This document shows, one piece after another, positions 5,501 to 13,787 of a stretch of 64,000 nt of DNA. Position numbers and translations under genes: made by a program. Numbering within the stretch: position 1 is the first letter of the stretch; each line of letters begins with the position of its first letter. The stretch spans positions 42,415 through 106,414 of the forward strand of contig SDOX01000096.1 of the NCBI GenBank assembly GCA_004565275.1, written 5' to 3'. The stretch comes from Nannochloropsis salina CCMP1776 (taxonomy: Eukaryota > Sar > Eustigmatophyceae > Eustigmatales > Monodopsidaceae). The notes beneath the pieces were generated by a model. The model made no database searches, had not been told where the DNA came from, and saw nothing but the letters and a program-made list of their open reading frames with translations.

Positions 5501-6509
5501 AACCATGCCTTATTCGCAGCTATATCCATCAAAGATAACATTGCCTACGGCTTGAAGTAAGTTTTCACGGCAACGGCAAGGAAATGGAGATAGCAAGCAA
5601 GGAAGCTTGCTGCCATCGAGGCGTGCGCTCGAGCGCGCGCCTTTCACGATACATTCCCTCTCCCTCCCATACTCCCTCCCATCCTCCCTCCCTCCCTCCC
5701 TCCCTTTCCCTCCAGGCCTGGGACCTTCTCGCAAGCCGACGTGGAAGCCGCAGCCCGCGCTGCCAACATTTACGACTTCGTCCAATCCCTCCCCGACCGC
5801 TTCGAGACCGTCATCGGGGAGGGCAGCGTCGGCCTGTCCGGGGGGGAGAAGCAGCGAGTGGCGATAGCCAGGGCCCTCATGCGGAAACCGGAGGTGCGTC
5901 CAGCGCCCCCTGCTCGCGTTAGTTGGCTCGCTTCGAAGTCGAGCTCCCGCCGACCAGTCTGGTTGCCCTCCCTCACCCTCCCTCTCTCTCCCTCACCCTC
6001 CCTCCCCTTTCCCTCGCCTCCCCGCCCCTTCTCCTTCCTTCTCTCCTCTTCTTGCACTCTTCTCTGCTTCGACCACCAGATCCTCCTGCTCGACGAGCCC
6101 AGCTCAGCGCTTGACCAGAGTTCCCAGGCGATCGTCCAGGCGGCGTTGGAAAGGGCAGCGGAGGGGAGAACGACCCTCATCATTGCTCATGTACGAGAGA
6201 GGGAGGGAGGGAGGGAGGGATGGGGTTGTCAAATTTTTTCAAGTTTTTCGGGGTCTGGAAAATTTCAGGGTCTGACCAAGATTCACACCTCCGCATTTTG
6301 CACACGAACAGCGACTCAGCACCATTGAGTCCTGCGACAGCATCATTGTTCTCAAGAGCGGAGCCGTGGTCGAGCGAGGCACCCATGCGGAGCTCCTGGC
6401 CAAGGAGGGGGTGTATGCGGCCTTTCGCGCCCAGCAGACATTCATGCAGCCCCCAAAAGACGTGGAGCCACGGAGAGCCCAGGCAGTGAAAGAGGCGGAA
6501 AGGACCTGA
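2558..6509 (+). CDS. ABCB-type half-transporter (one membrane domain plus one ATPase)
   Basis: Twelve exons: 2558-2666, 2854-3402, 3552-3661, 3740-3983, 4178-4345, 4463-4668, 4868-5189, 5354-5434, 5520-5556, 5716-5893, 6080-6190, 6312-6509. All phases agree, giving 770 residues, the usual half-transporter size. Exon 1 is a hydrophobic leader ([19 protein letters not shown]). The transmembrane domain includes the coupling segment [17 protein letters not shown] typical of TAP/MDR-type exporters. The nucleotide-binding domain has Walker [10 protein letters not shown], signature LSGGEKQR, Walker [13 protein letters not shown] and the switch histidine in IIAH|RLSTI, so the ATPase looks intact. It should act as a dimer exporting a hydrophobic or peptide-like substrate. 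The substrate cannot be read from sequence. The leader suggests entry to the secretory system or plastid. Several introns begin with GGGA tracts and end with TCCC tracts. Confidence 0.92.
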
Positions 6510-6958: not shown

Positions 6959-9900
6959 TCAAGACGACTGTGGCTTGCCCCGCGGGACTTGTAGTCGGGC
7001 ACCGTCTCGTGTCCGACGACGGGCCTTCACCTCGCATAAAAACTCCACTACCCCTCTATAATCACCACCAACGGATAGCGGAACTCTTTGACGCTGTAAT
7101 TTCCTGTCGGGACTTTTCCCTTTCTGTCTGTTAGCCGCGGATGGAGTCATTCTCTTTTTCTCATCGCTGTACAAAACCTGGGGCAGAGTAGAGTCCGAGG
7201 TGGCAGTGCTGATTGGCGAGCTGAAGCTATATCCTCCTGTTACGCTTCGTCCTTCCCCACCCACCACGGGCAGGTTCTCTCGACTGCGACACGTAAGAAA
7301 TTCAAACGGCGAAGTCTTTTCTCCGGGTGCTTCATCTTGTTTCGAAGGTGGCGTGCAGTCCTGAATAAGGTCGTTTCGAACACACATTACGCCTTGTCCC
7401 AGCTCCCGTTTGTGGCTACCCATGAATTTTATAAGCGCATGTTGTGTCATCGGTAGCGGACCGAATGTCAGAATATCCACCTCAAAATGTCCCGTGCCCT
7501 CCTCCCGTGTCCGGGTGAGCTCGTCACGAGCCTCCAATTCGGGTTGCCACCGCATCGTGTGCAAGTTTCGTAACATCTGCTCTCCAGAAGTTCTGTGAGA
7601 GGCAGCTGAACATTCTTCATGCACGCGGAGTGACTCGTCCAAGGCCTGATGGTGTCGAAGGCGCCACAACGGGTCCTCACACGGTAAAGGGTAGAGCAAA
7701 ACTATCTCCTCCACCAAATTTACCGCCGTGTCGGTTCCCATGTCCTCCATGAAAGCTGGACCGCCCTCCCGACCCGACTCATTCTCCTCCGGGGTGTCGC
7801 TCATCCAGCTTACGCGAGAAGAATTGCTCTGCCGCTCAGGGAAGTTATGGCGAGAGGGGGGGGGCGCATTACCTCCGGCATTCGAAACATGCTCCCGTGT
7901 CTCCGGTAAGGATTCTCGGCGTCCAGCACCACCGTCCTTCGTGTCCTGCGCAAAGTCTCCTGGTAAGGCAGGTCTTGAAGGGAGGTTACCACCAGCATGC
8001 TCTTGCTGGTTCTCAGATGCATGTCTCTCTGAATCGGGACGAAAACCGTAAAAACAGCAGTGTGAATTTGTGTTTCGACTACCTTCAGTACGTGGTCGAT
8101 CTCGGCGGCGGAAGAAATCTACGTTTTTAAATCCCATAAATTGAAAACTGAAGTTACTCAAGCAAACGGTGATAAGAAGGGGTGGGAAGCTGGAACGATG
8201 AGAAGAAGGACGCAGGTAGCGGGGAGACGAGACTGGCCTCCCTACTTGGCGCACGATTGCCGCTCTTGCCATCGCCCTTGCAATTTCCGATGACTCCCCG
8301 TATTCCCAAAATGTATCAGCACCATCTACACTGCCCTGTTCAATATTTGTTGCCGTGAGGGGAGAGAACTGACCAAGGTAAAGAGCGAGGGGGTGAGCGG
8401 TATTCAACAGTAGAGAAAAAGCAGCAGAGACCGGCCGGTGGTCGGAAATGATGGCCAAAGGGCCCCTTTCCAGAGCGTCGTACGCCAGTGGCAGTAGCCT
8501 GTGAGACACACCAGGAGTCGAGCGGTAGAGGATCCTGTCGGTGTATGACGGCGTCAGATCGATCCATGGTCTTTTCGTCTCCTGTGTGACGTAGGCTTTT
8601 TCGACCACAGATGGTATGATGAAGTCTTCGCCGTAAGCAGCCTTGTTCCATTTGTAGGTCGGAGGAAAGACGATGGGGCACTCTCCAAATCCGTGCAACA
8701 TGAGCCCCTTTTGGATGGAAGAGATAAGGGTGTCCACATGTTTTACCCACGACCAAGCGCGGACCACCACGTCCATCAATGATTGCACAGTCTGGTGCTC
8801 CATGCTCCGCACTCCCAATTCTACACAAGCGAGCCGTGGTTCTTCGTCGCCTTGTCTCAATCCCTCCCCTTCTTTCCACTCCTCGTCGCCGTGCCGCGTC
8901 TCCCACAATGGACCACGAGGAATGAGGGGCAGGCTCGCCGTACCTTGAGATTCAGCGCTCCAGAACCTTGAGTAGCCAACAGCCCGCCAGTTGCAGTCCA
9001 TACCGGGACGACTGACTCTCTCCAGCATGCTTTGACATGCTACCGCGGACTCTACAACCTTGCTTAAGACCTCGGACGGGCTGTGACCCCGTGTTCGATA
9101 ATTCAAATTGCCTAATAAGAAGACATGGTGGTACTGTAAATGCGTGTCGAAAAGCTCGTGTTCACCATTGAGTCGCAATTTCCGAAGCATGGCTGCCACA
9201 TGTCTAGCGCGGTAATCATCATCATAGCTGTACTGATCCCGTTCAGGGAGGTGAGCATTGATAACTGCAATGGATTGATCATAAAAACGGAAGCTCAATC
9301 CGAGCAAACCCTTAGTGCCTGTGCAAGTTGCCCGGATGGGGCGCTCGTTTACTCCTATCAAACGGAAGGCGCCAGACTCGACATCGACCGTACGAACAAA
9401 GAGCATGAGAGCCGACTTGGAGGCGTGCGTGGCATCGTTTAGCTCCGCTGTTGCCACAAGCGAGAACTTAGCGTTGCCCCCTAGCTGCTTGTGAACGGCT
9501 TCCCGCAGATGTAAAAAATCGGTGCTTCTCTGTACCGCGATGGCATAGATATGGTATCCGCCTGCAGGAATCCAATGCTCCAAGCCCTCCGCCAGCAAGT
9601 TTCGGGATAAAACAGACAGCAAAAGATTGTTCTTAGGCAGGGGCTCGCATGCCATGTCGAAAGTGGTAAGAAAGATGCTATGCGAGTGAAGCGCTGGGTT
9701 GGAAATTGCCTGAGAAGAATCGGAAACTAGCGCCCGCCTCCACCACGAATGAGAGGTTCCCCCGCCCACCGCTGTATCTTCTCCTGGCATTGGCGTTGAT
9801 ATCCACTGCGAAGAGAATCGAAGCCTATCTATCGAATCTTTGTACGAATCACCGAAAAAGGCACCCACAACGCGAGGACAACAACGACACATCCACTTGG

Positions 9901-11099
9901 TCGCACCAAGACTTTCAGGGAAACTGTAGCAAAGCGCATCGACAAATGCCATCGCCAGATTCCACTGTCAGACGATAAAGCATATAGTGATATAAATAAG
10001 ATCATGAAGGGTGAGCAATCATTGTGAAAGGTGAAGAGAGAACGCTATTGCTTATCTGTAAAGCTTGCTTACCTGAAGCAAGAAAACAGCCGCAAATGTG
10101 CGCACGTACGAGGGTACTACCATCAATCCCCAAAGGACACAAAAACTGAACGTGACTAGCCATAGGCGCAGTTGTAGCCGTCGAGAGCTCATAGGTAAGG
10201 GCCGTTCATCTTTTCTCAGAATAAAAATGGTGGAAATGTTGAAGTAGGCCACTAACAACCAGCAGATCGGGAGCAGAAGCCACCGGTCAAGCAGAAATGC
10301 AAGGGCTGCGTCGCCGTCTTTCTTCCAAAAGGTTGTCAAGAAACAATGTGAGTGCCGTGCCAGGCCAACAGTTCCTTCAAAGGCAGGAACCAAAGTCAAG
10401 CCTGCGGCAAGGAGGCAAGTGGCCAGAGCAACAGGGAGGAGATCACGACAGAGGACATAGACGGGCTGGCGATGGTTCACCCACGACCACATTTTCCAAG
10501 CGATCACTACGTGCCACATACTATTCTGCAAGTCTAGCCAGTAAGTTATAATGCCTAAAGGCCTGCACCATTTGTTGGCTTCTTCCAGCCTCAGAGTCCC
10601 ATTGCTTGGAAGGGCACCATCGTTCAGCGCCGCCACAACCATACCAAAGAACCAAAAGATACATTGCAAGAGCTCAATTGTGAGTAAGGCACCAATCTAT
10701 ATAGAATGGAGTAGAGACAGATATATTTGAATAATAAAAATCCTCAATGCGAAATCAGATCGACTCCCAACGCTATAATTGCTCTGATCGTACCTCATAC
10801 TCGGACAAAGGGGGAAAAGATTATTTAAAGGAAAACTGCTCGCTAGACTTAAGTGAAAAATCTTGTTAACTAGATCTATGCCATATCTTCCATGCCGGGA
10901 GGCTTACCAAAATATGGGAAAATTTACAAATCGGGCTTAATAATCGCGAGCGAAAGGAAGCTAGAATGGACAGCAAAGTGGGACCGCCCACCAGGAATGA
11001 TAGCAATATCAGTAGAAGGTTTCGAATGTAGAGAATGCGTGCCTCAGTCAAAGAAAGATGACCTAGCATCTCCTGTCTACCAGCTATCGCATTCACCAT
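6959..11099 (-). CDS. Seven-transmembrane receptor fused to inositol-polyphosphate 5-phosphatase domain
   Basis: Minus-strand exons 10908-11099, 10073-10696 and 6959-9964, joined in phase 0 at consensus donors (TTG|GTAAGC, CAG|GTAAGC), give 1273 residues. Residues about 23-285 form seven hydrophobic helices. TM3 begins with Cys108 and loop 2 carries Cys182, a typical receptor disulfide pair. TM3 and TM7 resemble the cAMP-receptor-like (class E) type. The splice at residue 272/273 falls inside TM7, so the receptor is not complete without the downstream exon. From about residue 365 an IPPc-like domain follows, with FPPTYK, PSYTDRIL (744-751) and SDHRPV (779-784). Three catalytic positions differ from the family: N of WN is D375, E of QE is R418, and GDLNYR is GNLNYR (557-562). 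Receptor-phosphatase fusions are reported in oomycetes among the 'GPCR bigrams'. The last ~470 residues are low-complexity and unrecognised. An internal intron in the long last exon cannot be excluded. Confidence 0.85.
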
Positions 11100-11601
11100 T
11101 ATCCAATTTCTTCATGATAAAATAGGTAGGAAATTACAAAAATGAGTTTCATGATGCCATTGAAATCTGCATGAAAGGTGTTCCTCGCGAGCCATTATCC
11201 TCCAACCTCTCGAATGTTAACTTTCCAATCTCTTAGCGTAGGATGTTGAGCCCTGCGTGCGTCGAAACGAGACAATAAAGCGCCTGGGGGTCGTGCGAAT
11301 GCTGGGGTAGGAGGTTATTTTTCTGTCGCTCTTGGCGACGGGATCTGTCGAGGAAATACAATGCGCTCGCCTGGCCCGCCTGCGCCCGGTGCCGTTGCAG
11401 GGTCTGTGGTCGTCAAGGAGCATGCCAGGGTGTATATGATATGTTAGTGTGGTTGTATCGTGCGCCAGTTAACAGATTGCACACATGACAGCAACATCGC
11501 GAGACCGAGGTCCTTCAACCCTGCCGACAACCTCAACATCAGCACGCCGCCTCCCTCCGCTGCAGTGCCTCGACCCCCTGTACTTATTTCCTCCGACGAT
11601 C
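11100..11601. promoter_or_regulatory. Divergent promoter region
   Basis: About 500 bp between the start codons of the receptor-phosphatase gene (minus) and the plastid guanylate-kinase-domain gene (plus). It must contain both promoters. No specific element could be named. Confidence 0.45.
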
Positions 11602-13787
11602 ATGAAGCATCCACCCTTTCTGTCATTACGATTGGCTGTAGTTTTTCAGTTTCTAGTAAATTTTGGATCTGACGTGGTAGCTTTCCACCTTCCCGGTGGA
11701 AACCTCTATCGCGTCGGTGGGAGGACATACACAAGTCCCGTGACAGCTCCGCAGCTTCCCTCCTTGGACAAGCTGTATTTCGCGAGAAGCGTCCCGAGAA
11801 CAATCAACATGGTCACCTCGACCTCGACCGACAGGTATGTCTCGAATTGCACGCCCGTGCTGAAGTTGCCCCTGTGTCCTTGTTTTCTTCCTTCGCCCCA
11901 GTAAGAGTTCAGCTTACCGCTTCTCTCTCGAGGCCTTCTACTCGTGAGCTTTGTAGCGGTCGACACCCCGCATCCGCCTCATGTCGTGAAACTTCCATCC
12001 CTGCGTCTCCTCCAGCTTCTTGGCCTTATCGTCTCCCTCTTCATCTGTTCCTGTCTGAAGTCCACCGCTACATCATGTCAAGCGCCTACAGCGGTCTCAC
12101 CTCCCTAAATACTCGCACATGATTCTCCCCACAGCAGCAACAACAATGCCTTTGGCACTGCTCCCCCCGCCCCCACCTCCCTCCCCTACCCCAGGCTCGG
12201 GGACGTCGTGCTCTTCCCCGGGAAGTGGGTGGGCGACACGGGCATCGGGCAGATCCGATTCCTGCAGCTGACAGGGGACGGGCGGGGCGGGAAGGAATGG
12301 ATCGCCGACTTGACCCCCTTCAAGGACGTCGGGGAAGACCTGTACCGTGCGGAGAAGGGGACGCGGGCCAGGACCTTCCCCGTGAGCGCCCTCCAGCCCC
12401 TCTCGCATTTCTACATCGGCAGCTCGGACGCCTTCAAAGTGCCGCACAAAGAGGAAGCGGGAGGGGAAGGGATGGGGCGGAGGCGGGAGCCCGTGAGGAT
12501 GGCGCCCGGCTACAGGACGGAGGGCTTCTCCCTGGCGCCCGCCAAGGTGGACGCAGAGGCCATGGCGGCGGCGAGGGGCAAGTACCAGGACTTGAAGCGG
12601 CGGATCCTGACCGACACGGCGGCCTTCGGAGGCCTCGCGACCGTCGCCGTGGGCCTGAACGCCGGGGTTGAGGACGCAGGGATCTTTCTGGCGGGCGTGG
12701 CGGGATCCGTGCTGTACCTGGTCCTCCTCACGCAGAGAGCGGACGCCATGGGGCAGGCGGGGGGGGAGGGGGGGGGGCTCAGCAAGGCGGGGGGGGGGAG
12801 TCTGGTGGGGAGGAGCGTGGGCGCGACCCGGTTCTTGGTCCCCGTCGTCTTGATCGCGGCCCTGGCCTACAAGAACCTGTACATGGAGGGGGGGGAGGGG
12901 GCGCCGGCCTGGCGGGGGGCCGGCTCTTCAACTACGTGCCCCAGGACGAGTTCTGGTCGGCCACCTTGGGCTTCCTCTCGTACCGAGTGCCGATGCTGGG
13001 GCGGGAGGTGGGGGAGATGCTGGCGCGGAGGAGCGAGGGGCAGCGGGGACAGGCAGGTACCCTGGGGGGGTCGGTGAGGGCGGGCATGGCCCTGGTCGAC
13101 AGGCTGCAGGGAGGGAGGGAGGGAGGGAGGGAGGGAGAGACGGCGGCCGCGGAGGCCGCGGGGGGCGCTTACAGAAATGAGGTGACGGTGCTGGTGGTGA
13201 GTGGGCCGGAGGGGATGGGAAAGCGCGGTCTGGCGCGCAGGCTGGTTGAAAGCGATCCGTTACAAAGATACGCCGAGCCCGTGTGGGTGACCACGCGGGC
13301 GCCGAAGGAGGGGGAGGTGGACGGGCGGGACTACCATTTCGTGGAGGATTTTGCCTTCCAAGTCATGCGGGAGCAAGGGCGCTTCTTGACGGCCTATCAG
13401 GAGGAAGCGGGGGAGGGCAGGGCCTGGTTCGGACTTCGGCCAAGCGACGTGGTGGACGTGATGAGGAAGGAAGGGAAGGTGTCGGTGCTGGCGCTGGACG
13501 CTTTCGCTGCAGACAAGCTGCTGGCCTTGGGGGAGGCCCGCCTGATCGGCGTCTGGGTGACTCTCAACACCGTGGACCAGCTGCGGGGGCGGTATGGAGG
13601 GGAGGAGGGAGGGAAGGAGGAGGAGGTGGAAGCGGCGGTATCGAGGGCGACTGTGGCCATAGAGCACGCCCTCATGGGGGAGGCGGGGAGGAGGGGCTTC
13701 TACGAGCACACCATCTACGACGACAAGGGCAAGGAGGAGACGCTCCGGTCGCTGCGAGACTTTGCGGACTTCGCCCTCAGCCTGTGA
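11602..13787 (+). CDS. Plastid CGL160/AtpI-like membrane protein fused to guanylate-kinase domain
   Basis: Exons 11602-11834 and 12135-13787. The N-terminus is a signal peptide ending ...VVA|FHLP, the red-plastid import signature. A small soluble domain (GDVVLFPGKWVGDTGIGQIRF) follows. Next comes a membrane region like CGL160/AtpI, the assembly factor of the chloroplast CF0 ATP synthase: KYQDLKRRILTDTAAFGG, two helices, then TRFLVPVVLIAALAYKN and LGFLSYRVPM. The C-terminal ~200 residues are a guanylate-kinase domain with P-loop SGPEGMGKRGL and the family signature TTRAPKEGEVDGRDYHFV. The frame changes at about 12913-12920, inside a G-run between the membrane region and the kinase domain. The shift equals one missing G, and with it the model is 628 residues. 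A sequence error is more likely than a broken gene, because both sides are well conserved. Confidence 0.8.

Follow-up and report, generated by a model that had tools for sequence, protein, structure and literature searches.

Fusions of a G protein-coupled receptor (GPCR) to an inositol polyphosphate phosphatase, the GPCR-INPPs, were published in 2018 for oomycetes and N. gaditana, and seven such genes are reported for the latter in the accessible text (PMC5784254). In the available portion of a 2022 paper, BLAST searches of oomycetes that used human queries recovered no robust INPP5 homologues (PMC9694693), a result that conflicts with the reports of GPCR-INPPs from this group. The literature names the catalytic activity of the accessory domains in GPCR-bigrams as an open question, and van den Hoogen and Govers, in their model E, foresaw inactive catalytic domains among them, according to the excerpted text (van den Hoogen and Govers, 2018; PMC6033456). 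A word search of the main text of PMC5784254 returned neither "inactive" nor "active site" nor "catalytic residues", and no description of a GPCR-INPP with a dead phosphatase was found in the accessible parts of the open-licence literature. Here a fusion gene of Nannochloropsis salina CCMP1776 is described, which lies on the minus strand at 6959 to 11099 of a 64,000-nucleotide stretch of contig SDOX01000096.1 (positions 42,415 to 106,414; hereafter the window). The receptor-phosphatase class is known already; what looks new, as read from the DNA, is an apparently dead phosphatase with a conserved fold.

The 1,273-residue product results from the phase-0 join of three minus-strand exons at GT..AG sites. 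The gene, its exons and its domains are as follows:

6959..11099, minus strand: whole three-exon gene, 1,273 codons plus stop
10908..11099, minus strand: exon 1 (192 nt), N-terminus and transmembrane helix 1 (TM1), residues 1-64
about 10956-11024, minus strand: TM1, part of exon 1
10697..10907, minus strand: intron 1 (211 nt), GT..AG, GT donor at 10907, in-frame stops if retained
10073..10696, minus strand: exon 2 (624 nt), TM2-TM6 and the first half of TM7
9965..10072, minus strand: intron 2 (108 nt), GT..AG, with a stop in the exon-2 frame
6959..9964, minus strand: exon 3 (3,006 nt), TM7 end (FVDAL), linker, IPPc domain, C2-like tail and stop
8387..9694, minus strand: IPPc (5-phosphatase fold) domain, exon-3 residues 91-526
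6995..8194, minus strand: probable C2-like tail, conserved strand blocks and two long variable loops, weakly suggested by the secondary structure of a low-confidence model

An in-frame stop is met when either intron is read through, and the open frame of exon 3 spans 1,001 codons. The second junction falls directly after Q272, within TM7, so that exon 2 halts in the middle of the helix and exon 3 supplies its end. This end, FVDAL, aligns with the end of TM7 in the relatives P0005-P0010 and in single-frame paralogs. The orthologous exon-2 frames P0012 and P0013 have the same junction, followed by VS, and the window also reads VS into its GTAAGC donor. Most likely, the gene encodes one protein composed of a seven-transmembrane (7TM) receptor-like region, a 5-phosphatase-fold domain and a C2-like tail, provided that the splicing predicted from the DNA takes place in the cell. 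Exon 2 and exon 3 orthologs in linkage were also sought in prokaryotic and viral public contigs, where none of the 54 and 28 pattern stretches, respectively, was confirmed.

The 7TM part has seven helices with a GPCR-like fold. It has no Pfam match of its own, including none to the Class E profile PF05462, whose cut-off is reached by the relatives P0008-P0010 but not by the window. An AlphaFold model of exon 2 contains five long helices and the start of TM7 (mean predicted local distance difference test score, pLDDT, 60.8). All 50 listed Foldseek rows for this model are GPCR entries (best E 0.015, none under 0.001), as are all 50 listed VIA-align rows. Exon 2 further contains the conserved Cys108, at the start of TM3, and Cys182, in the second extracellular loop, and is 67 and 66% identical to P0012 and P0013, respectively. 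The N-terminus would lie outside and the C-terminus inside the cell. The genome (26.5 Mb in 103 contigs) gave no match to PF05462, but the controls were also silent, so this search carries no evidence on absence. Only one other place in the genome matched the window 7TM at E up to 1, namely the 7TM of another GPCR-INPP-like gene (L029/L024; 26% identity, E 4e-13).

The phosphatase domain was identified by a significant match to the inositol polyphosphate phosphatase profile PF22669 (E 6.5e-21). The tail of the protein is probably C2-like, judging from the strand pattern of the model; in the relative P0009 the profile PF24147 scores E 0.07, short of its cut-off. The initial annotation had proposed three phase-0 exons with textbook splice sites, a second junction inside the seventh helix, and, for a photosynthetic stramenopile, the fusion of a GPCR-type receptor with a domain of the inositol 5-phosphatase family, and all of this was borne out by the exon sizes and GT..AG sites, PF22669 and the GPCR-like fold. 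Its remark that receptor-enzyme fusions of oomycetes include inositol phosphatase types agrees with the accessible text of PMC5784254, which adds N. gaditana. Of the two profiles that it named for the protein, IPPc was matched and class E was not.

Alignment with relatives revealed that the catalytic residues of an active inositol 5-phosphatase are replaced at five sites:

9656..9658, minus strand: Asp375 in place of the relatives' Asn (motif T-[WYFL]-N)
9527..9529, minus strand: Arg418 in place of the relatives' QE glutamate
9314..9316, minus strand: Thr489 in place of the relatives' NKG Asn (SHIP2 N540)
9107..9109, minus strand: Asn558 (codon AAT) in place of the relatives' GDxN Asp (SHIP2 catalytic base D607)
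8555..8557, minus strand: Leu742 in place of the relatives' Arg of RxPSW (SHIP2 N684)

The first Asn, the QE Glu, the NKG Asn and the RxPSW Arg are altered in all five rows of the orthogroup, and the GDxN Asp in four of the five; these rows represent about four lineages, P0001 being 99% identical to the window. At the QE glutamate, which we take to be a Mg ligand, the orthogroup has Arg, Lys or Gln. The same five sites are canonical in 12 other sequences wherever they could be read. The motifs found in L029, L033, L034 and L036 were canonical, though the set is incomplete: an apparent splice interrupts the QE motif of L034, which was left unread, GDxN was not found in L029, L033 or L036, and L036 contributes the last two motifs only. 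For L035 the GDxN entry is spurious, owing to a missing exon, and was left uncounted. With metal-site, base and headgroup residues substituted across the orthogroup, the phosphatase domain of the window gene is probably catalytically dead.

The domain has nevertheless been conserved. Its IPPc core is 57-70% identical to P0002-P0004, whereas linkers, the IPPc insert and loops reach 16-36%; within the tail, the C2-like blocks are 54-69% and the loops 16-31% identical. In a tree of 17 rows, which includes P0009 and P0010 and leaves out the incomplete gene models L029, L033, L034 and L036, the orthogroup joins the GPCR-INPPs and is separated from L026, which is OCRL-like, and L027 (support 100/99). 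The place of the window group among the paralogs is unsure, and its long stem branch (1.95) may attract other long branches, as the tool warned. The distances that separate the window from P0002-P0004 (0.74 to 1.11) resemble the summed values between L031, P0006 and P0007 (about 0.7 to 0.9); P0004, at 1.11, lies farther from the window than the most distant pair of the L031 set (about 0.9). Because the domain stays conserved while its loops do not, we infer a maintained pseudophosphatase receptor in whose line catalysis was lost at an early stage, and not a decaying protein.

The same genome has 11 other IPPc loci, and in six of these a single open frame leads from TM helices into the IPPc domain. 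P0005 (Nannochloropsis salina CCMP1776 NSK_000083) is 100% identical to one IPPc locus, L031. The 5-phosphatase encoded at L026:4239-6608 is canonical and OCRL-like, and it also has ASH and RhoGAP domains. Matches to PIP5K-type kinases are present; for PI-PLC-X an exon-by-exon search gave no match at E 0.1, but since only one of 14 control genomes responded, below the cut-off, absence is not claimed. One genome match to G-alpha lies above the cut-off (E 1.1e-113) and holds one in-frame TGA, perhaps within an intron, so G-protein signalling is available to the alga. The initial annotation had also suggested that the receptor couples its ligand directly to phosphoinositide or inositol-phosphate signalling without a G protein. 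Direct enzymatic coupling is left unsupported by the substitution of active-site residues across the orthogroup, as is the dispensability of a G protein by the G-alpha match.

Taken together, the gene would likely encode a 7TM receptor whose pseudophosphatase works as a non-catalytic module, most likely a regulatory tail. A ligand at the 7TM part would change the shape of the receptor, and the dead cytosolic domain would relay this change by docking. It may pair with and tune the active-looking GPCR-INPP paralogs, by analogy to inactive myotubularins, or it may keep partners or lipid at the membrane, with the receptor itself signalling through a G protein. A more specific form of this proposal, which we regard as doubtful, is that the former lipid-phosphatase pocket, with its metal-ligand Glu replaced and K490 and H781 kept, became a metal-free phosphoinositide or inositol-phosphate sensor; the receptor would then read an outside ligand together with inner-leaflet lipid and tune the active paralogs.

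Several observations weigh against a non-catalytic receptor module. Erosion is uneven, as P0003 retains the GDxN Asp yet has GEH instead of SDH, and the window retains SDH and the PSYTDR core, along with K490 and H781, which correspond to phosphate-contacting residues of SHIP2. The small number of independent lineages counts here as well. On the receptor side there is no significant Pfam match, the confidence of the exon-2 model is moderate, and the exon-2 profile gave only a short match to P0008-P0010 (39 columns, probability 30.5, E 5.3e-4). Most of the exon-3 model has low confidence (mean pLDDT 42.7, 702 of 1,001 residues below 50).

Some of these points would suit an ordinary GPCR-INPP enzyme with a rearranged metal site, in which Asp375, the retained His and the PSYTDR residues support catalysis. 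Such a phosphatase could draw on H510, K490, D748, R749 and H781 and on the GDxN Asp of P0003, and migrated catalytic residues are considered possible in some pseudoenzymes in the available text of a review (PMC10211241). This is unlikely given that every row of the orthogroup is changed at the QE glutamate, the first Asn, the NKG Asn and the headgroup Arg and that SHIP2 D607A by itself is described as inactive. Quite improbable, too, is a standard G-protein-coupled receptor with the IPPc tail as an inert anchor. The G-alpha gene would fit, and an inactive catalytic domain is foreseen in the excerpted model E (PMC6033456), but the fold blocks of the dead domain come close to the 7TM exon in conservation, which is more than an anchor should seemingly require. 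A division into two genes or transcripts, with exons 1-2 giving a short 7TM protein and exon 3 a soluble pseudophosphatase, is hinted at by gene calls covering exon 3 only (P0001-P0004) or exon 2 only (P0011-P0013), which non-splicing callers would give anyway; with the end of TM7 at the start of exon 3, as in single-frame relatives, we rejected this very improbable alternative. A decaying pseudogene, for which active-site erosion and the long stem could speak, is scarcely credible and was rejected given the 1,001-codon frame and domain-specific conservation over about four lineages.

The neighbouring genes were also inspected. Upstream, at 11473-11904 on the plus strand, a frame starts with a signal-peptide-like stretch followed by VVAFHLPGG, which presumably resembles a heterokont plastid-targeting motif; the interval that separates this frame from the receptor gene would serve both as a promoter region. 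A divergent neighbour at 12109-13787 (plus strand) matches the C-terminal part of CGL160 (PF24763, E 3.4e-9) and, in an overlapping frame, guanylate kinase (PF00625, E 9.9e-15). Either both matches belong to one CGL160-guanylate kinase fusion, interrupted by an intron or frameshift near 12900, or they are separate readings. At 5594-6328 (plus strand), in convergent orientation to the receptor gene, there is a match to an ABC transporter ATPase (PF00005, E 3.7e-7). Promoter, Rfam and tRNA scans gave nothing informative.

The gene would be a case of a 5-phosphatase domain that is inactive yet retained within a receptor. With canonical paralogs in the same small, culturable alga, a conserved member that is apparently dead would allow receptor signalling to be cleanly separated from enzyme activity. 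Among known systems, Class E GPCRs (Dictyostelium cAMP receptor-like) have a stretch of TM3 and the Cys columns C44/C118 in common with exon 2, and three related fusions score PF05462, unlike the 7TM of the window itself. SHIP1/2 phosphatase-C2 proteins have the same 5-phosphatase fold, are the best structural matches of the window domain and resemble it in the probable C2-like tail. SHIP2, however, is enzymatically active and has no 7TM part, and the C2 of the window is only putative. Cimex nitrophorin, also among the structural matches, has a 5-phosphatase-like fold but is a salivary protein rather than a receptor; its role is presumably haem binding and not phosphatase activity. Myotubularins retain phosphoinositide-phosphatase folds without catalysis in their inactive members (MTMR5, MTMR9-13), which partner active ones according to the available text (PMC6563779), although their catalytic motif CX5R is unrelated and the likeness is one of analogy. 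The closest relatives are the GPCR-INPP bigrams of oomycetes and N. gaditana, which likewise place an N-terminal 7TM region before an inositol polyphosphate phosphatase domain within one gene, whereas the phosphatase of the window orthogroup lacks the catalytic residues (van den Hoogen et al., 2018).
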